The notes: a model not told the origin generated them from the sequence alone. A stretch of 64,000 nt of DNA from Gemmatimonadota bacterium (GCA_027623325.1 JAQBXY010000013.1:1-64000), one strand, 5' to 3'. Positions 53,440 through 64,000 are shown, counted from the stretch's first letter. Numbers and translations are program-made.

Positions 53440-54104
53440 ACTGGATTCTTGTGGCGATTCTGGCCGTGTCGGGCCCATCCACCGCGCTGGTCGCAGAGGG
53501 TGATTCCATCACCGTTGCGCGTCTCCAGTACGACGGGGGCGGCGACTGGTACGCCAATCCGTCTTCTTTACCCAATCTGCTTGCGGCAGTCCGAGATCGC
53601 ACCGGAATTCAGGTCGCTCGGCGAGAAGTGAATGTGACCCCGCTCGATCCGGCGCTTCGCGACTACCCGTACCTGTACATGACGGGCCATGGGAACGTGA
53701 CGTTCACGCCGGCGGAGCGGATCGCGTTGCGCAACTACCTGCTCGCGGGTGGATTCCTGCACGCAGACGACAACTATGGACTCGACGAGTCGTTCCGCGC
53801 AGAAATGGTGCAGATGTTCCCCGAAGTGGGGCTGACCGAGATCCCTTCGGAGCATCCCGTGTTTCACACCTTCTACGATCTACCCGACGGTCTGCCCAAG
53901 ATTCACGAGCACGACGGCAAGCCCCCGCAGGCACTTGGGATCTTCCACGAGGGACGCCTGGTCGTGTTCTACTCGTACGAGTCGGACCTCGGAGATGGAT
54001 GGGAGGACGAGGCCGTTCATGAGGACCCGCCCGAGACGCGCGAAGAAGCGTTCCGCATGGGCGTGAACCTCTTTCTCTATGTGCTCGGACAGGTAGCGTC
54101 GTGA
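53436..54104 (+). CDS. DUF4159 domain exported protein
   Basis: 222 residues with a short signal peptide (MNWILVAILAVSGPSTALVA). DUF4159 core: ITVARLQYDGGGDWYANPSS, YLYMTGHGNVTFTPAERIAL, LRNYLLAGGFLHADDNYGLD and SEHPVFHTFYDLPDG; the domain has a class I glutamine-amidotransferase-like fold, here without the Cys nucleophile. Often encoded beside MoxR/DUF58/Bat genes. Overlaps the DUF4175 gene by 4 nt. Confidence 0.85.
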   Translation: MNWILVAILAVSGPSTALVAEGDSITVARLQYDGGGDWYANPSSLPNLLAAVRDRTGIQVARREVNVTPLDPALRDYPYLYMTGHGNVTFTPAERIALRNYLLAGGFLHADDNYGLDESFRAEMVQMFPEVGLTEIPSEHPVFHTFYDLPDGLPKIHEHDGKPPQALGIFHEGRLVVFYSYESDLGDGWEDEAVHEDPPETREEAFRMGVNLFLYVLGQVAS

Positions 54105-57100
54105 GCCCGGCCGACCGCCACCTCGAGGCGCGCGTGGCGGATGTTCGCCGGCATCTGGGTCGCCGGGCGGGCGCGGCTGCGGCGCTATGGCTCGGCGCGG
54201 GCCTGTGCCTCCTCGTCATCCTCGGATGGCTCCTCTCGGGCGGCGGAGGCTGGAGGCAGGGCTCCGACGTGCCCGCGGCGCTCGACCTGTTCGCGGGACT
54301 CGCGATCGTCGGAGGCGCGTGGCTGTTTCGGGAGCGCGCGGTGGGTTGGTTCGACGAGGTACCGCTGTCGGGAGCGATCGAGCGGGCGACGAGTATTCGG
54401 CCTGGGATCCTTCGGGGGGCACTCGAGCTTTCCAGGAAGATTCCCCACGGGGTGTCGGGGACGTTGGCGAACAAGGCGGTCCTCGGGGCGGCGCGTCAGC
54501 TCGACGGACATACCGACGAGGTCCTCTCGGGTTCACTCGGGGCCGCCGTGGTCCTTTGGACCCGGCGCGGCTTGAGTGCTGCGACAGTCCTGGTCCTGAT
54601 TCTGGTGGGGCTGACGGTCTTGTCGCCGGCTCGCACGCTGGGCACGCTCTCGGCTCTGGCGTCGCCGTTTGCGACGATGATCGACCCAGTTCTACCCCCG
54701 CTGGTTCTCCTGCCCGGCGATGTCGAGGTGCTTCGGGGTACTGATGTGCAGATCGAGATTTCGGCGGCAGGGCGCCTAGGGGTGGAATTCGCGTGGCAGG
54801 CCGCGGGTGACGTGGCGCGTTCGGAGCGACTGGACGTGGTCGACGACCGGGCCACCTACACCTTTCGGACGGTGTCCGCGCCCATCGAATACCGAGCGCT
54901 CGACGATGCGGGGAATGAGTCGGCAACGTACCGCATCGTGCCCATCGACCCCCTCTTCGTGAGTGACCTCGTTCTGAGCGTGACGTACCCTCCGCACACC
55001 GGCCTCCAGGCAGACGAATACCGAGGGGATCCCCCTCCGCTTCGTCTACCCGCAGGCTCGACGCTTCTGTTCGAGGGACTCACCAGCAGGCCGCTCACCT
55101 CGCTGCGGCTTGCCGATTCCGTGGGCACAGCGCTCTCGTTCGAGGTGGACGACCGCACGTTCCAGGCGCGCTGGGTGCCCCGTGTCAGCGGGGTATTCGA
55201 GTGGGACTTCAGAGACGAACTGGGTGCTCCGGCCGAGATTCAACCGGAGCCGCTCGAGATCACTGTGATTGCGGACATGATGCCGGCCATCGCGATCCCC
55301 ATGCCCGGACGCGATACGATCCTTCCGCTCAATCTCAGGCAGCCGCTCGTCATTGAGGCTGCCGACGACTACGGACTTCGACGAGTCGAGTTGGTCGCGT
55401 ATCGGGTCACCTCGTTCGGAGAACGGAAGGACCCTGTGGCTCAGGGTTTCGACGTCGGAGGGCAGCGAGCGATCCTCGCCCGCCCGCTTCTCGATCTGAG
55501 CGGGTGGGGGCTGTTGCCCGGGGATACGGTCCACTACTACGCCCGCGCCATCGACAACAGCCCGCCCGGACAGGAATCCCTGTCGGGCGAATACGTCTTG
55601 CGCATGCCCGACGCCGCAGAAATGCGCCGGGAGGCGGAGAACGCGCTCGAGGGTGTGGCGGAACGACTCGAAGAACTCGCCGCGGAGGCGGCTCGGCAGG
55701 CGGAGGAGAATCGAGACCAGGCGCTTGAATCGACGTCGCCCGGGGATGAGCAGGCCGGGGGTGGTGATCAGGAGCAAGCCGATTTTGAGGAACGAGAGGA
55801 GCTGCAACGTGCGCTCGAGGACCAGGCGCAGATGTCTGAGGAGGTCGACTCGCTTCGCCAGGAGATGGAAGCGCTCGAACGGATGATGGAGGAAGCGGGT
55901 CAGGCGGACCCGGAGCTTCGGCGGCAACTCGAGGAACTTCAGGAACTGCTCAATGAGATGACCGGGAGCGACCTCAAGCAGAGAATGGATGAACTCGCGG
56001 ATGCGCTCCAACAGGAAAACATGGAGCAGGCCAATCAGTCGCTCGCCGAGATGGCGGCGGAGCAGGAGGAGTTCCGCAAGCGCCTGGAAGAGTCGATCGA
56101 GCGCTTCAAACAGGCTGCTCTCGAGCAGGATTTCCGGGCGACGACCAGCGAGGCTGAAGAGCTGGCTCGACAGGAGCAGGCCTTGGCCGACGCCCTGAAA
56201 GAGGAGGACAGTCCTGAGTTGCGAGTGCAACAACAGCAGGACCTGGCGGAGCAGGCCGAACAGCTCGAGGCCCGGATGGAGGCGCTGCAAGATCGACTGA
56301 ACGAGATGGGGGAAGAGGACGCCGCGAAGGGCGTCGAGCGTGCGAAGGAAAGCGCTTCCGAGGCGCGCCAGCAGATGCAGGAAGCTCAGCAGAAGGCGCA
56401 GGAGGGCGACTCCCAACAGGCAGGCGAGGAAGCGCAGGAAGCGGCCGATCAGATGGAGCAAGCGGCTCAAGAGATGGAAGAGGCCATGCAGGAAATGGCA
56501 CAGCAGCAAATGGAGGCTCAGAAGCAGGCTCTCTTGCGGACGGCCGACGACGCGCTGGCGCTCGCTCGTCGTCAGGGCGATCTACGCGAGCAGATGCGCG
56601 GCGCCAGCCAGGAGCAACTCGCTCAGATGCGAGCGGATGAGGCCTCGCTGCTTCAGGGCGTGCAGAACATTGCCGAGAACCTCCAACTCGCCACGGAAGG
56701 CGCGATGGGGCAGAACCAGGAATTGTCCGCCCAGATGGGACGGACCATGGAGTCGCTCCAAAACACCATCGAGGCGATGGAGAACCGACGCGGTGCGACG
56801 CCGTCACCGTCCGTCCAGGCCGAGCAGTCGATCGGGGATCTCAATCAGCTTGCGCTGATGGCGATCGCGGGCGCGGACCAGATGGGAGAGCAGGGCCAGG
56901 GCCAGGGCGGGGAAGACATGGCCGAACAGCTCGAGCAGTTGGCCCAGCAGCAGGGTGAGTTGATGAATCAGAGCACCCAGCTGATGCCGATGCAGCTCGG
57001 TGAGCAGGCGATGTCCCAGCAGATGCAAGAGATGTCGCAAGGTCAGGAGTCGGTCGCGAGCGACCTGGGGGACCTCGCGGACGAGCCCGGGGCGGAAGAG

Positions 57101-57457
57101 TCCCTAGGGGATCTGCAGGAACTGGCTCAGGAAGCTCAATTCCTGGCACAGGAGATGGCTCAGGGTCGGCTCACGCCGGAAATGCTCCAGAGGCAGGAGC
57201 GCCTCTTTCACCGGCTTCTCGATGCCGGTCGGTCCCTGGAGCGGGAGGAATTCTCCGAGGAACGAGAGTCGGAGGAGCCTGGCGCGTTCCAGCGTGGACA
57301 GGTCGTGCCGCTTACGGCCGGCCAGTTGGGCGTGATGCCCTATGAGCTTCCGGACGGCGACCAGCTTCAGAGCTTGAGTCCCGCCGTGAGGCAGCTCGTT
57401 CTCGAGTACTTCGAGCGCCTGAACCGAGCTCCAGTCGGCCCGGGAGGTTCACTATGA
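54101..57457 (+). CDS. Large DUF4175-type membrane protein with Gln/Glu coiled coil
   Basis: 1118 residues. Three membrane helices (about 26-46, 58-76 and 148-170); an extracytoplasmic Ig-like, BatD-resembling region (about 190-500; VLRGTDVQIEISAAG, LVLSVTYPPHTGL, IEAADDYGLRRVELVAYRV); a very long Gln/Glu/Met-rich coiled coil (about 505-1005); and a C-terminal helical domain ending LVLEYFERLNRAPV. It lies between DUF4159 and a TPR-like protein, all overlapping by 4 nt. Probably a structural envelope component; no enzymatic motif. Confidence 0.8.
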   Translation: MSPADRHLEARVADVRRHLGRRAGAAAALWLGAGLCLLVILGWLLSGGGGWRQGSDVPAALDLFAGLAIVGGAWLFRERAVGWFDEVPLSGAIERATSIRPGILRGALELSRKIPHGVSGTLANKAVLGAARQLDGHTDEVLSGSLGAAVVLWTRRGLSAATVLVLILVGLTVLSPARTLGTLSALASPFATMIDPVLPPLVLLPGDVEVLRGTDVQIEISAAGRLGVEFAWQAAGDVARSERLDVVDDRATYTFRTVSAPIEYRALDDAGNESATYRIVPIDPLFVSDLVLSVTYPPHTGLQADEYRGDPPPLRLPAGSTLLFEGLTSRPLTSLRLADSVGTALSFEVDDRTFQARWVPRVSGVFEWDFRDELGAPAEIQPEPLEITVIADMMPAIAIPMPGRDTILPLNLRQPLVIEAADDYGLRRVELVAYRVTSFGERKDPVAQGFDVGGQRAILARPLLDLSGWGLLPGDTVHYYARAIDNSPPGQESLSGEYVLRMPDAAEMRREAENALEGVAERLEELAAEAARQAEENRDQALESTSPGDEQAGGGDQEQADFEEREELQRALEDQAQMSEEVDSLRQEMEALERMMEEAGQADPELRRQLEELQELLNEMTGSDLKQRMDELADALQQENMEQANQSLAEMAAEQEEFRKRLEESIERFKQAALEQDFRATTSEAEELARQEQALADALKEEDSPELRVQQQQDLAEQAEQLEARMEALQDRLNEMGEEDAAKGVERAKESASEARQQMQEAQQKAQEGDSQQAGEEAQEAADQMEQAAQEMEEAMQEMAQQQMEAQKQALLRTADDALALARRQGDLREQMRGASQEQLAQMRADEASLLQGVQNIAENLQLATEGAMGQNQELSAQMGRTMESLQNTIEAMENRRGATPSPSVQAEQSIGDLNQLALMAIAGADQMGEQGQGQGGEDMAEQLEQLAQQQGELMNQSTQLMPMQLGEQAMSQQMQEMSQGQESVASDLGDLADEPGAEESLGDLQELAQEAQFLAQEMAQGRLTPEMLQRQERLFHRLLDAGRSLEREEFSEERESEEPGAFQRGQVVPLTAGQLGVMPYELPDGDQLQSLSPAVRQLVLEYFERLNRAPVGPGGSL
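55606..57150 (+). repeat. Gln/Glu/Met-rich low-complexity coiled-coil segment
   Basis: Inside the DUF4175 gene about 500 codons encode near-continuous heptad-like helix with very high Gln, Glu, Ala and Met content (for example QMQEAQQKAQEGDSQQAGEE). The underlying DNA shows a purine-rich GAG/CAG/ATG-biased composition unlike its neighbours, without exact tandem repeats. Confidence 0.7.
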
Positions 57458-59229
57458 TGGCGCGTCGCGGCCGATGGCTGTGGGCCGGCGTGCTTCTCCT
57501 CGCGGCCTTTGGCGCCGGGCATGGATCACTCGAAGCGCAGATCCGGATGCGCAACTCCGAGGCGCAGCAGCTTCGAGAAGCCGCAGCTCGCGAGTCGCGA
57601 GGGGACTTCGATGGGGCCGCCCAGATTCTGCGGGGCCTGCTCGAGAACGACGCGTCGTCTCAGGGCGGACTCTTCGCTCTGGAACGTGTGCTCCGCGCTC
57701 AAGGGACACTCCCGACGATCCTGCCGGAGGTCGACGCGTTTCTGAGGGAAGACCCGGCATCGTCCGGCGTCCGCTCGTTGAAACTGCGCGTATTGTTCGA
57801 AGCTGATTCGCTCGGAGCGCTTCGCGACGAGGCCACCCGATGGATCGAAGCCGACTCCGCGAGCGACGTCCCGTATCGGGAGATTGGGCGCGTCTACGAG
57901 CGGGCGTTTGGCAGTGGGGCCGCTCTCGAACTCCTTCGTGAAGGGCGAATTCAGATCGGCTCGGAGTCTGCGCTCGCGCTCGAAATTGGCGACCTGCTCG
58001 CAGGAAGTGGTCGCTTGGATGAGGCTGCTGCCGAATGGACTCTGGCGGTCGGAGACGATGGTGCTCAGGTGTCCACGATTACTCGCCGCCTCCAGGGCCT
58101 GACGAATGGTGTGGAGGAGACGGGCCTACGGGTCGTAGCGCTGCTCGCCGACTCTGACCTCCTACCGCGTCGCCGAGCTGGCGTCCGGGTCGCGCTCGAC
58201 CTCGGGCTCGAGCGTGCCGCCTTGCCGCTGGTACAGGACGTTGCTTCACGACTGGACGGACGCGCCCGGTCCACCTTCCTGTCCGACACCGCGCGGCGCG
58301 CTCGCGACAGCAACCTGGTGGACGTGGCGGCGTGGGCGTACGACGAACTCGGTGAGGAGGCGGGTACGCCTGCGGAGCGAAGGCAGTTCGATCAGAGAAT
58401 TATCGATGTCTCGCTCGCGGCGGGTGATACGGCCAGTGCACTCGAGGCGCAGAGGCGGGTCGCCGAGTCCTTCTCTCCCGGGTCGGTAGATCGACGCCGA
58501 GCCACCGCGCAGGTCATTCGTTTGGAGGGGACTCGTTCAGAACCGGACATTCTGCGGGCGCTCCTCGTAGAGTTTCGTGAGGGTTTTCCGAACGCCCCAG
58601 AACTCGACGATCTAGCGGCCACGGTGGCCGGAGCGTTGCAGACGCGGGGCGATCCCGTCGGAGCTGCGGCAGTCCTCGAAGGCATTCGAGGCCCGAAGAG
58701 TTCGCTCGAGCGCGCGTACCTCCTCCTGGCGGCCGGTGATGTCGAACAGGGGCGCTCTGCGCTGCTGCTCGCGCTGACCGGGCTGCCGCCTGCGGAAGCC
58801 ACGCCTGTTATTCAGTTCGCCGGCCTGCTCGGCCGGGCTTCGCCCGCTGGAGCGGACGCTCTGGCCGCCGCCGGGGTTGCCGCGCATGGCGGACGGGCGG
58901 CGGAGGCCGCAGAGATCCTCTCCGATGCGGCGGGTACGCTCGAGTCGGAGGAGCAGGCTCCCACACTCGCGGAAGCCGCCCGCATGGCCAGTTCCGGCGG
59001 TGAGGAAGAGATCGCGGCCCGAATTCGAGAACGTATCGTGACGAATTACGGGGACACTCCCGAGATGGGGGAAGCGTCGCTCGCACTGGCTCGCTACTAC
59101 GGCCGCACATCGAACGGTGTCGACGAGGCGATCCGCTTGCTCGAGGAGTTGATCACGCGACGACCCAACGCGGCAGTAGTTCCCGACGCGCGGGTCGAAC
59201 TTCAGAAGCTCCGGAGTAGGGGACGATGA
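57454..59229 (+). CDS. Exported TPR-like repeat protein
   Basis: 591 residues with a signal peptide (WLWAGVLLLAAFGAGHGSLE). The mature protein is a solenoid of paired helices with TPR-like spacing (AAARESRGDFDGAAQILRGL; EIGDLLAGSGRLDEAAAEW; SLALARYYGRTSNGVDEAI). Likely a periplasmic scaffold for partner proteins. Starts with tandem ATGs overlapping the DUF4175 stop. Confidence 0.78.
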   Translation: MMARRGRWLWAGVLLLAAFGAGHGSLEAQIRMRNSEAQQLREAAARESRGDFDGAAQILRGLLENDASSQGGLFALERVLRAQGTLPTILPEVDAFLREDPASSGVRSLKLRVLFEADSLGALRDEATRWIEADSASDVPYREIGRVYERAFGSGAALELLREGRIQIGSESALALEIGDLLAGSGRLDEAAAEWTLAVGDDGAQVSTITRRLQGLTNGVEETGLRVVALLADSDLLPRRRAGVRVALDLGLERAALPLVQDVASRLDGRARSTFLSDTARRARDSNLVDVAAWAYDELGEEAGTPAERRQFDQRIIDVSLAAGDTASALEAQRRVAESFSPGSVDRRRATAQVIRLEGTRSEPDILRALLVEFREGFPNAPELDDLAATVAGALQTRGDPVGAAAVLEGIRGPKSSLERAYLLLAAGDVEQGRSALLLALTGLPPAEATPVIQFAGLLGRASPAGADALAAAGVAAHGGRAAEAAEILSDAAGTLESEEQAPTLAEAARMASSGGEEEIAARIRERIVTNYGDTPEMGEASLALARYYGRTSNGVDEAIRLLEELITRRPNAAVVPDARVELQKLRSRGR

Positions 59230-60482
59230 TGACCGCACGCTCGTGGCTCATGACTGCGTGCCTCTTGCTTGTGCCGATCACGGCGCAGGCCCAGTGGCTG
59301 CTCGTCCCCATGGATCGAGATCAGGACAATCATCTGAAGGCCTACGGGCTCACCTATTGGGTGCTCGAGCAGCAAGAGAAGGCCGAGTGGCTGCTCAACT
59401 ACCGGGGTGGCTCCTTCCTGTTGCCGGACCGGCCCGATGTGCGTCGGGAGGCTGCTCTTCGGGGCGTCAGCCTGCAGCCGATGGATGCGTCTGCCGAGGC
59501 CCGGATGCGTGCAACGGTGCAGGCATCGAACATGGAGGCGGTTCCGCTCGAACGTGCTCCGAAGGTTGCCATCTACACCCCACCGAATTCGACTCCGTGG
59601 GACGATGCGGTCACGATGGTCCTCGAGTATGCAGGGATCCCGTACGAGACGATCTGGGATAACGACGTGCTTCAGGACAACCTCTCGGACTACGAGTGGA
59701 TTCACCTGCATCACGAAGATTTCACCGGGCAGTACTCGAAATTCTTCCTGACCTACTCGGGTGCACCCTGGCTCCAGGACGAGGTCGCGAGAAACCAAGA
59801 GGTCGCCCGGAGCGGTGGGTTCGCGAATGTGCCCGAGTTGAAGAAGCACGTCGCGGACGCAATCCGGACGTATGTGGAGGATGGGGGCTTCCTGTTCGCC
59901 ATGTGCTCGGCCACCGAGACCCTGGAATTGGCCCTCGCCGCCCAGGATGTTGATATCGCCGCAGCGTACTCCGACGGGACCCCCCCCGACGCGAACGCCT
60001 CGAGCAAGCTCAACTGGGAGCGCACCATGGCGTTCGTGGACGGGCAGGTGCAGATCGCGCCCTCGGTCAATTCGTTCTCGGACATCGATGGGCATCAAGT
60101 GAACACGCCCTGGCGCAGAGAATTGGGCGTGTACACGCTCTTCGATTTCTCGGCGAAGTTCGACCCGGTTCCCGCCATGCTGACTCAGAATCACGAGTCG
60201 GTAATTCCCGATTTCTATGGATTGACGACCTCCTTTCGTGAGGATCGCCTCAAGTCCGGGGCGATCGTCCTCGCTCAGGAGGCCGGCTCGGCGAAGTACA
60301 TCCATGGTAACTTGGGCGAAGGGACGTGGACCTACTTCGGGGGTCACGACCCGGAGGACGCGGAACACCAGATCGGGGACCCGCAGACCGACCTCGCTCT
60401 GCACCCGAATTCCCCCGGGTATCGCCTCATTCTGAACAACGTCCTCTTCCCGGCCGCGAAGAAGCAGAAGCTGAAGACTTGA
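59226..60482 (+). CDS. Exported GATase1-like protein
   Basis: 418 residues, signal peptide with cleavage near ITAQA-Q (about 23). Body resembles exported proteins of Bacteroidetes/Gemmatimonadota that databases often call asparagine synthetase B: LKAYGLTYWVLEQQEKAEWL, NYRGGSFLLPDRPDVR, APKVAIYTPPNSTPWDDAVT, and VEDGGFLFAMCSATETLELA with C at the amidotransferase nucleophile elbow. An ATP-dependent synthetase domain is absent, so that name is misleading. Overlaps neighbours by 4 nt. Confidence 0.72.
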   Translation: MMTARSWLMTACLLLVPITAQAQWLLVPMDRDQDNHLKAYGLTYWVLEQQEKAEWLLNYRGGSFLLPDRPDVRREAALRGVSLQPMDASAEARMRATVQASNMEAVPLERAPKVAIYTPPNSTPWDDAVTMVLEYAGIPYETIWDNDVLQDNLSDYEWIHLHHEDFTGQYSKFFLTYSGAPWLQDEVARNQEVARSGGFANVPELKKHVADAIRTYVEDGGFLFAMCSATETLELALAAQDVDIAAAYSDGTPPDANASSKLNWERTMAFVDGQVQIAPSVNSFSDIDGHQVNTPWRRELGVYTLFDFSAKFDPVPAMLTQNHESVIPDFYGLTTSFREDRLKSGAIVLAQEAGSAKYIHGNLGEGTWTYFGGHDPEDAEHQIGDPQTDLALHPNSPGYRLILNNVLFPAAKKQKLKT

Positions 60483-63088
60483 GTCGGGGCATTCCGGACG
60501 GGTTCCCGATCACGCTCCCCAAGGAGGCGTTGGCGGGCTTCGACGGATTGGAGCCTGACGAGGAAATCGTCACGGCGTCGGCGGGCAGGCCTCCGCCCAC
60601 GCCGCTCACGCTCTCCCCGGACGCCGCTCAGCGACTTCGACACGAGATCGAGCGAGCGGGAGGAAGGGAGGTCTGCTTCCTCGCCTCCGTGGATGAACGT
60701 CGCGTCGTGCGAGACCCGCGCGCCGTATCGAGAGGCAACTTCGAGGCCGTCCTGGTCGCGGCGCGCGATGCTCCGGAAGGGGGCGTCATGCTGCACAACC
60801 ACCCCTCCGGAGTTCTCGAACCGTCTGACGCGGACATGCGGGTCGCCGCCCGCCTCTACGAGCAGGGCCTGGGCACGGCGGTCATCGACAACACCGCTGA
60901 GCGGATGTACGTCGTCGTCGAGCCTCCTCGAGCGAGAGAGCGGGTGCTGTTGGACGGTGCTGCACTCGGGGCGCTCCTCGGCCCGGGCGGTGCTCTGTCG
61001 GAGCTCTTCGATGGCTACGAAGACCGACCCGGGCAACGCGCGATGCTCGAAGCGGTCACGGAGCGCTTCAACGACGGCGGCATCGCGCTGGTCGAGGCCG
61101 GCACCGGAACCGGGAAGTCCCTCGCATACCTCCTGCCCGCCGTCCGATGGGCTCAGGAGAACGGGGAACGCGCGGTCATCTCGACCAACACGATCAACCT
61201 CCAGGAGCAGCTGGCCGACAAGGACCTCCCCTTGGTCCGGGCCCTCGTCGGCGACTTCAAATGGGCCCTGGTGAAGGGTAGGGGCAATTACATCTCCATC
61301 CGCCGAGCGCTTCTCGCTGCGGAGACACAGACGAGCATCTTCGAAGAAGACCGGTCAGCGGAGATGCGCGGACTTCTCGAGTGGATCGAGACGACCGAAG
61401 ACGGCTCGTTGTCCGACCTCACGTTCTCGCCTGCTGACGAGACGTGGGAGGAGGTACGGAGCGATCCCGACATCTGTCTGCGGGCTCGCTGTCCGCACTT
61501 TCAGGAGTGCTTCTATCAGCGGTCGCGTCGGAGGGCAGCTTCGGCCGAGGTGCTTGTTGTAAATCACCATTTGCTGTTTACGGACCTCGCTGTGCGGCGG
61601 GCGACGCAGAACTACACACAGTCTGCGGTCCTGCCTGCCTATCACCGTGTCGTTCTCGACGAAGCCCACAACATCGAGGATGCCGCGACTTCACACCTCG
61701 GGGTGGAGATCACGCGGCGCGGGCTCTATCGCGCGATGTCACGGCTGGATCGGCGGGGGCGTGGCATCCTTACCGCGATCCATGAGGCGGTCGGTTCGTC
61801 CGAGAACGGATCCGAGCTGCGGGAGCGGGTCGAGAACCGAGTACGGCCTGCGCTATCGAAGGTGCGTTCCGAGGTGGAGGGTCTGGTCGAGCGACTGGAG
61901 CCGTTTGCGCCCGACGGGGAGGGTCCCGTGCGCCTGGGTGAGTCCGGGGGGCCGGAACCCGCCGCGAATGAAGATGTCGCCGAACGGCTGCGGGCTACGC
62001 TGTCCGGGCTCGGGACGCTCGAGCGGGAGCTCTCCGAGCTGCGGGCCCGCCTCGAGATCGTAGAGGAAGTGGCGGAACGCCTTGAGGCGCGACTTCTCGA
62101 CCTCCGCTCGGTGGAGCGACGACTGGCCGCTTCCGCGCACGCGCTACGCCTGGTCCTCGCACCGGGTGACGAGGCGGAAGCCTTCGTTCGGTGGATGGAA
62201 TCGCGAGGACGCGGGAGCCGCAGCAACCTCGTGATGGCGGCGGCCCCGATCGAATTGGGCGGCTTGTTGCGAGAGTCTCTGTTCACTCGCGCCGAGACGA
62301 CGATCCTCACCTCAGCCACGCTGACCACTCGCAATAGCTTCGAGTTTCTTCGTGGCCGGCTCGGGCTTTCTTCGTCCGAACTCGATCTCGAGGAGAGCGA
62401 GGTCGAAGTCTCCGAGCGGATGGTACCGTCTCCCTTCGACTTTGCGACTCAGGTCATGCTCGGCGTGCCGACCGATCTACCGGCGGCAGGCGGCGACGGC
62501 GCTTTTCACGAAGCAACGGCTCAGGTGCTCGAGACGTTCGCCGAGATTACCGACGGCGGCATCTTTGCGCTCTTCACCTCCCACGGGGCCCTACGGCGCG
62601 TCGCACAGACGCTTCGCGAGCGCAGAGTCGACGCCCGTTGGCCACTCTTCGTACAGGGAGAGGATGACCGCCACCGTCTCCTCGAGGGCTTCGTGAGGGA
62701 GGGTAGGGGCGTGCTCTTGGGGACCTCGTCCTTCTGGGAGGGAGTGGACGTGCCGGGGCATCCGCTTCGGGGGCTCCTCATTCAAAAACTGCCGTTCCGA
62801 GTGCCGAGCGAGCCCATCACGGCTGCCCGCATGGAGTCGCTGGAACGGCTGGGGCATGATCCCTTCCAACACTTCATGCTCCCGCATGCTGCGCTGCGGC
62901 TGAAGCAGGGTTTCGGGCGCCTGATCCGGTCCCGTTCGGACCGTGGAGCCGTCCTGATTCTCGATGATCGGATCATCACGAAGAGATACGGTCGGTACCT
63001 GCGCGACTCCCTGCCCGATGCGCCCTTGGTGAAGGGCGCGTGGAGTGACGTGGAGCGGAGTGTCCGTGCCTTCTACAGCCCCTCATGA
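60479..63088 (+). CDS. JAMM/RadC-like domain fused to a DinG/XPD-type helicase
   Basis: 869 residues from TTG 60479, overlapping the previous stop by 4 nt. Residues about 40-150 form a JAB/MPN domain with complete JAMM motif H106-N-H108-PSGVLEP-S116-D-A-D119 and an upstream Glu (about 89), as in RadC. The rest is a superfamily 2 DinG/XPD helicase: Walker A EAGTGTGKS (206-214), DEAH (394-397), TSATLTT, and the C-terminal motifs GTSSFWEGVDVPG and QGFGRLIRSRSDRG. Of the four iron-sulphur Cys, C333, C338 and C344 are present; the first, usually in NYxC, is S273. Probably DNA repair; the function of the metalloprotease-like domain is unknown. Confidence 0.88.
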   Translation: MSRGIPDGFPITLPKEALAGFDGLEPDEEIVTASAGRPPPTPLTLSPDAAQRLRHEIERAGGREVCFLASVDERRVVRDPRAVSRGNFEAVLVAARDAPEGGVMLHNHPSGVLEPSDADMRVAARLYEQGLGTAVIDNTAERMYVVVEPPRARERVLLDGAALGALLGPGGALSELFDGYEDRPGQRAMLEAVTERFNDGGIALVEAGTGTGKSLAYLLPAVRWAQENGERAVISTNTINLQEQLADKDLPLVRALVGDFKWALVKGRGNYISIRRALLAAETQTSIFEEDRSAEMRGLLEWIETTEDGSLSDLTFSPADETWEEVRSDPDICLRARCPHFQECFYQRSRRRAASAEVLVVNHHLLFTDLAVRRATQNYTQSAVLPAYHRVVLDEAHNIEDAATSHLGVEITRRGLYRAMSRLDRRGRGILTAIHEAVGSSENGSELRERVENRVRPALSKVRSEVEGLVERLEPFAPDGEGPVRLGESGGPEPAANEDVAERLRATLSGLGTLERELSELRARLEIVEEVAERLEARLLDLRSVERRLAASAHALRLVLAPGDEAEAFVRWMESRGRGSRSNLVMAAAPIELGGLLRESLFTRAETTILTSATLTTRNSFEFLRGRLGLSSSELDLEESEVEVSERMVPSPFDFATQVMLGVPTDLPAAGGDGAFHEATAQVLETFAEITDGGIFALFTSHGALRRVAQTLRERRVDARWPLFVQGEDDRHRLLEGFVREGRGVLLGTSSFWEGVDVPGHPLRGLLIQKLPFRVPSEPITAARMESLERLGHDPFQHFMLPHAALRLKQGFGRLIRSRSDRGAVLILDDRIITKRYGRYLRDSLPDAPLVKGAWSDVERSVRAFYSPS

Positions 63089-63462: not shown

Positions 63463-63490
63463 CTCTGACTCTCACTTGCGGGGCATTCCG

Positions 63491-64000
63491 ATGACCAGAA
63501 TTCAACCTTCGAAGATCGTATGTGTCGGCCGCAACTACGCGAAACACGCGGCGGAACTTGGTAACGATGTGCCGGTCGAGCCTCTCATCTTCCTCAAACC
63601 CCCCTCGTCGCTCGTCTTCGAAGGAGACGACATCGTCTTGCCGCAAGGCGCGGGGCGGGTGGATTTCGAGGGCGAGATCGGTGTGATCATCGGCAGGCGG
63701 GCTCGAAACGTCGCCGCCGCGGATGCCTGGGACTGCGTGGAGGCGCTGATCGCGGTCAATGACGTGACTGCGCGCGATCTGCAGCGTACCGACGGACAGT
63801 GGACACGGGCCAAGGGCTTCGACTCGTTCTGTCCCGTGGGCACGCCGATCCCGTTGGCCGAGGTAGATCGCTCGGCTCTCGGAGTGAGGACCCGCGTGAA
63901 TGGTGAAGTCCGTCAGGACGGCCCGGCATCGGACATGGTGTTCGACATTCCGGCGATCATTGCCCACATCAGCTCCATCATGACGCTCGAACCCGGAGAC
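63491..64000 (+). CDS. Fumarylacetoacetate hydrolase-family protein, N-terminal part
   Basis: Open from ATG 63491 to the window end (170 codons, no stop). [29 protein letters not shown], the metal ligands in [23 protein letters not shown] and [13 protein letters not shown] place it in the FAH family (fumarylpyruvate hydrolase/2-hydroxyhepta-2,4-diene-1,7-dioate isomerase-like). It acts on 2,4-dioxo or enol acids; the substrate cannot be told from sequence. A purine-rich site upstream is weak (GCGGGGC). Confidence 0.88.

Follow-up and report, generated by a model that had tools for sequence, protein, structure and literature searches.

A RadC-like DinG protein of Gemmatimonadota: a JAMM-helicase fusion found across the phylum, with a predicted zinc site that is usually kept and sometimes lost

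Movement along single-stranded DNA (ssDNA) in the 5'->3' direction is established for the DinG helicases of Escherichia coli and Staphylococcus aureus, and in the ExoDinG of S. aureus the N-terminal exonuclease is active. Fusions of RadC-type JAB domains to DinG/RAD3-like helicases were already cited by Iyer et al. 2017 (PMC5512222), whose passages on RadC argue that these domains are without a groove for the ubiquitin tail and propose, from fusions including that with DinG, a role in nucleic-acid processing; a nuclease proposal for RadC-type JAB domains had been made in 2012 (PMC3482391). More recently, 'RadC-like DinG' was set up as a subgroup by Cheng 2025 (PMC11981726), in a review whose part on this subgroup presents a zinc-containing model of the Desulfuromonas soudanensis protein and notes that RadC-like DinG has had no research. 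The gene described here, at 60479-63088 (plus strand) of a 64,000-nucleotide stretch from a Gemmatimonadota bacterium (GCA_027623325.1, JAQBXY010000013.1:1-64000; hereafter the window), encodes a JAMM domain followed by a helicase and is almost certainly a RadC-like DinG. The first-pass annotation, made from the sequence alone, had called it the strongest candidate for an undescribed system in the window; this cannot be upheld, since RadC-DinG fusions are in print in both of the papers named (PMC5512222, PMC11981726), and the novelty of the fusion class is low. What is new here is a series of proteins with decayed JAMM sites and the synteny of the locus across the phylum.

The likeness to the subgroup, for which the D. 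soudanensis protein serves as example, extends to an N-terminal RadC-like domain with the residues E, H, H and D (E64, H106, H108 and D119 in the window), a YoaA-like helicase and a genome that lacks a HolC homologue. The main text of the same review names neither Gemmatimonadota nor members with a pseudo-JAMM domain. The passages on RadC in Iyer et al. 2017 (PMC5512222) bring in the same fusion and the nucleic-acid role as background to RadC domains found on mobile elements, and contain neither a survey of Gemmatimonadota nor a decay series.

The open frame at 60479-63088 encodes a single polypeptide of 869 amino acids (aa). Its TTG start (60479) and the stop codon of the upstream gene share a TTGA overlap, and a gene overlap of the same kind is found in the relatives L005, L007 and L014. 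Pfam places RadC (PF04002) at residues 48-129 (E 2.5e-7, above the family cut-off) and DEAD, DEAD_2 and Helicase_C_2 (E 2.2e-43) across residues 184-847. A contig scan of named genomes found 16 relative loci, with a stop-free match in all of them and an extension over the JAMM part in 15. The search for this architecture within Gemmatimonadota that the first-pass annotation had proposed, carried out with a profile restricted to the JAMM part against 200 sampled genomes from 92 genera, detected the JAMM-DinG fusion in 154 genomes and 68 genera. Nearly all of these frames have about 770-1360 codons; among the matches listed, four are shorter (343-394 codons), and in each of them the helicase side is at most about 700 bases from the end of its contig. 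Because 16 related loci are stop-free and 154 of the 200 genomes carry the fusion, the agreement is far beyond chance, and the gene is a real, single, inherited JAMM-DinG fusion; its homologues are fused in open frames and show no sign of the missed stop or frameshift that the first-pass annotation had considered.

In the window's genome, this gene encodes the only Helicase_C_2 protein and hence the sole DinG, and a stand-alone RadC lies on a separate contig. Six genomes without the JAMM match were checked for DinG: four lack DinG, one (G021) has a DinG without the JAMM domain, and in one (G084) the N-terminal part is unreadable. Fifteen of the 16 relatives from the contig scan are labelled as Gemmatimonadota or its subgroups. 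The exception, L004 (SMVQ01000194.1), is labelled Planctomycetota; its protein is 77% identical, and the three-gene block of the window is present at 74-85% identity. Since this identity coincides with synteny, the bin or its Planctomycetota label is probably wrong.

Sequence profiles and structure models agree on the nature of the N-terminal part. A RadC-clade JAMM/MPN domain is predicted at residues 42-150 (60602-60928), with the motif HNHPSGVLEPSDAD at residues 106-119 (60794-60835), in which H106, H108, S116 and D119 stand in JAMM spacing. Together with E64 (60668-60670; GGREVCFL), which sits on the first core strand, these residues match the JAMM/MPN+ motif ExnHS/THx7SxxD in register; the residue between H106 and H108 is Asn as in RadC, in contrast to the Ser/Thr of that motif. 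The JAMM signature of H106, H108, S116 and D119 followed by a DinG-type helicase in one frame, as first annotated, is thus borne out by Pfam, motif spacing and models. The catalytic glutamate had been sought near residue 89, which proved to be a variable column among the 46 intact-site proteins (D in 12, S in 8, E in 7, others); it is E64 that tracks intactness of the site, being present in 46/46 intact-site proteins and in 0/4 degenerate ones. A 25-sequence profile of the JAMM domain matches the RadC structure 2QLC (E 1.4e-6), and profile-profile comparison with the stand-alone RadC of the phylum gives a probability of 97.3%; on this sequence evidence, we assign the fused domain to the RadC clade. 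With stand-alone RadC (PF04002, 2QLC) it has in common the HNHPSG...PS..D motif and the predicted fold. Within the window's genome, PF04002 matches the stand-alone RadC with E 1.8e-39 and the fused domain with 6.5e-8, which points to a divergent branch of the clade.

The N-terminal structure prediction that the first-pass annotation had suggested yields a JAMM/MPN fold. The AlphaFold2 model of residues 1-185, built from 16 sequences, has a mean predicted local distance difference test (pLDDT) score of 68, with about 74-88 for residues 41-110, and shows the JAMM order of elements. Foldseek ranks Chlorobium RadC 2QLC first (E 8e-3); next come MPN proteins of the EMC, the proteasome and the signalosome, and the list also includes some ADF/cofilin chains. 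In VIA-align, nearly all rows are JAMM/MPN proteins (CSN5, PfJAMM1, Rpn11, BRCC36), with Z 5.4-7.1, a root-mean-square deviation (rmsd) of 3.1-4.3 and 96-115 aligned residues; these Z values are middling alone but concordant with what the motif and the profiles show. The full-length model reaches pLDDT 81.8 and a predicted template modelling score (pTM) of 0.77. It matches E. coli DinG (6FWR, E 7.5e-45; 6FWS, Z 39.2, rmsd 6.0 over 631 residues), and its helicase part also matches the ssDNA-bound S. aureus ExoDinG (8ZEF/9II8). In the models, the protein thus combines a JAMM/MPN fold with a DinG fold. Residues 1-39 (60479-60595) form a tail that is predicted to be disordered (pLDDT <50), varies in length and coincides with alignment gaps. 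The two domains are joined by a linker with two short predicted helices (residues 151-178, 60929-61012), as supported by the full-length model and by L040, a relative whose JAMM domain is gone and in which the linker end is still recognisable.

The DinG/YoaA-type superfamily 2 (SF2) helicase occupies residues 179-869 (61013-63085), as supported by Pfam, NCBIfam and the model match to 6FWS. Both motor domains, MD1 and MD2, are present with their ATP- and DNA-binding motifs, among them Walker A GTGTGKS (residues 208-214, 61100-61120), which is invariant or nearly so, and Walker B DEAH (residues 394-397, 61658-61669); the Helicase_C_2 domain lies at 62531-63019. Among NCBIfam models, YoaA (NF053712) scores best with 535.3 bits, below its curated cut-off of 680, so that assignment to this equivalog was rejected; DinG models come next, and none reaches its own cut-off. 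The first-pass description of a full DinG/XPD helicase is right for the motifs, which are complete, and for the iron-sulfur (FeS) cysteines C333, C338 and C344 (61475-61510), but the first FeS cysteine is replaced by Ser273 (61295-61297). Every protein sampled from the window's order has Ser here, whereas families f4, f5 and f6 have Cys, a clade-wide difference. In the review's account of RadC-like DinG (PMC11981726), the FeS domain has four or three cysteines; the window protein has three plus Ser273, and cluster binding is predicted from the sequence. Relative to E. coli YoaA and DinG, the helicase core is alike and a JAMM domain is added, and HolC (PF04364) was absent from all eight genomes tested (G000 and seven others; control positive in E. 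coli). In ExoDinG (8ZEF/9II8), too, the N-terminal slot is filled by a domain of enzyme type, but this is a DEDD exonuclease in place of JAMM. The first-pass view that DinG proteins usually stand alone or carry an exonuclease omits the RadC-like and EndoDinG subgroups.

Defining an intact site as one with all five JAMM residues, we find it in 46 of the 49 domain-bearing Gemmatimonadota proteins. The other three, L036 (G110:C3), L037 (G122:C9) and L038 (G132:C11), have lost three or four of the five residues, come from reduced genomes of 1.8-2.0 Mb and still have the lysine of Walker A and the glutamate of DEAH as well as the FeS ligands; proteins with a loss of just one or two JAMM residues do not occur among the 49. 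In the helicase tree, the G132 protein is sister to the intact L019, and the G110 and G122 proteins pair, with an uncertain deep placement. Because G132 groups with an intact relative while the other two pair with each other, the tree indicates at least two separate decay events in Gemmatimonadota. When JAMM conservation is set against helicase divergence, the mean residual is -3.2 to -4.5 standard deviations (SD) in the degenerate proteins versus about -1.2 to +0.9 SD in the intact ones, the JAMM domain diverging faster after loss of the site. The three genomes with decayed sites (G110, G122, G132) are also without a stand-alone RadC match. Absence of stand-alone RadC was rejected as an explanation of fused-site decay, since G034, G096 and G085 lack it and keep a fused domain that scores strongly (the site was read directly in G034); small genome size moreover confounds the coincidence in G110, G122 and G132.

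A further degenerate protein is encoded by Fusobacterium vincentii (L030:5977-8445, NZ_CP084075). It shares this architecture; R, T, S and E occupy the motif positions, the Glu is missing, and its pseudo-JAMM domain precedes a helicase with four FeS cysteines. Against the JAMM profile, hhalign scores 34.0 over 131 columns, compared with 16.2 for the best of 200 shuffles; judged by sequence comparison, homology of this N-terminal region to the JAMM domain is secure. The replicon, NZ_CP084075.1, is recorded as a plasmid of 2.1 Mb and is probably the chromosome. At the end of the series, L040 (G021:C37) is a DinG that has lost the JAMM domain and in which a piece of the linker survives; its downstream neighbour of the fumarylacetoacetate-hydrolase (FAH) family is also still in place. 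Because four relatives retain the domain without the site and G021 retains the helicase without the domain, selection evidently retains the catalytic-type site as a rule, yet the helicase is able to do without it.

The fusion gene stands in a conserved chromosomal setting. Upstream, at 59226-60482 (plus strand) and joined to it by the TTGA overlap, lies a gene whose 418-aa product has a start like that of a signal peptide, matches no Pfam or NCBIfam family and presumably resembles secreted Bacteroidota proteins named 'asparagine synthetase B'. Downstream, an FAH-family gene begins at 63476 (plus strand) and extends past the window end at 64000. Both flanks are syntenic across the phylum, being kept in most relatives with enough sequence and in its distant families; because they are shared so widely, the locus is best regarded as old, vertically inherited and chromosomal, and as neither a mobile nor a defence cassette. 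In the same gene block, the product of 54101-57457 (1118 aa) matches DUF4175 weakly and contains very long Gln/Glu-rich, coiled-coil-like stretches. No fused relative was found in viral contigs, the phage-record matches listed cover the helicase part only, and the sole JAMM match listed from a plasmid record is the 2.1-Mb Fusobacterium replicon, so a phage or plasmid origin was rejected. A defence role was likewise set aside, since PADLOC matches are confined to the helicase and CRISPR context is absent at the locus; the type IV CRISPR DinG (Csf4/CasDinG) profile scores well in PADLOC, but the neighbours are DUF4175-like, TPR, 418-aa and FAH-family genes.

By analogy with characterised DinG proteins, we propose that the motor would load onto ssDNA and travel 5'->3' where forks have stalled or where flaps, R-loops or G-quadruplexes occur. 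With less certainty, the JAMM domain may fill the N-terminal slot taken up by an exonuclease in ExoDinG and by an endonuclease in EndoDinG, and may serve as an accessory zinc hydrolase acting on nucleic acid exposed by the motor or on a group linked to that nucleic acid, a catalytic step that would usually be retained yet be dispensable. We assign a probability of about 45% to a fork or R-loop helicase with such an accessory hydrolase for exposed nucleic acid, and favour it because other DinG subgroups carry nucleases at the place of the JAMM domain. Several points weigh against it. The characterised JAMM hydrolases are peptidases or isopeptidases, and we know of no JAMM-family nuclease that has been shown biochemically. 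The JAMM-only model is modest in confidence (mean pLDDT 68), with Z values of 6-7 that are middling by themselves, and decay of the domain in some lineages would fit a binding or structural role equally well.

In eukaryotes, MPN-minus subunits serve as docking or regulatory modules, and a comparable role for the fused domain, in which zinc would aid the fold and catalysis would be secondary or absent, appears rather unlikely. It would account for the retention of the domain with a destroyed site in L036, L037, L038 and the F. vincentii protein L030. However, 46 of the 49 Gemmatimonadota proteins keep the five catalytic residues, two of which (E64 and S116) would be superfluous in a purely structural zinc site, and divergence of the domain is faster where the site has gone.

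Less probable still, though the main alternative of a catalytic kind, is a protease for DNA-protein adducts, in which the JAMM domain would cleave peptide or isopeptide bonds in proteins that obstruct the helicase, as a bacterial parallel of SPRTN-type repair. Its appeal lies in the bonds cleaved by characterised JAMM hydrolases, in an intact site and fold of JAMM-protease type, and in the presence of ThiS/MoaD-type ubiquitin-like proteins in 14/14 genomes tested. Genomes with a decayed site (G110, G122, G132) or without the domain (G021) have these proteins just as the others do, so that their occurrence in every genome tested is uninformative about the JAMM site and weakens a tag-based version. 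The Pup-ligase family PF03136 was found in 0/200 phylum genomes (control positive in Corynebacterium glutamicum), by which a Pup/UBact deconjugation system or substrate in the phylum was rejected and the tag-based version is weakened further. RadC-clade domains have, in the passages devoted to them, been argued to lack a groove for a ubiquitin tail (PMC5512222, PMC3482391), and the linked neighbours, an envelope-type protein and a metabolic hydrolase, include no adduct-repair partner and give no pointer to DNA repair. The removal of a protein adduct suggested in the first-pass annotation is thus unsupported here. A tag-free variant, in which a 5'->3' FeS helicase would drive obstacles into its own JAMM metalloprotease and so clear adducts at forks or R-loops, phylum-wide and repeatedly turned pseudo-JAMM in reduced genomes, strikes us as improbable. 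A misreading of two genes as one, or a faulty assembly, would agree with DinG and RadC usually being separate proteins, but is refuted for practical purposes by the fused, stop-free frames in many independent assemblies and 154 genomes and by the conserved linker.

Our analysis links RadC, a very common bacterial protein with no agreed function, with a known type of helicase. The natural series of intact site, eroded site and deleted domain offers ready-made alleles for assessing what the JAMM chemistry contributes. Nuclease activity would make the domain, as far as we know, the first JAMM enzyme with a nucleic-acid substrate; protease activity would provide a direct bacterial route to adduct repair.

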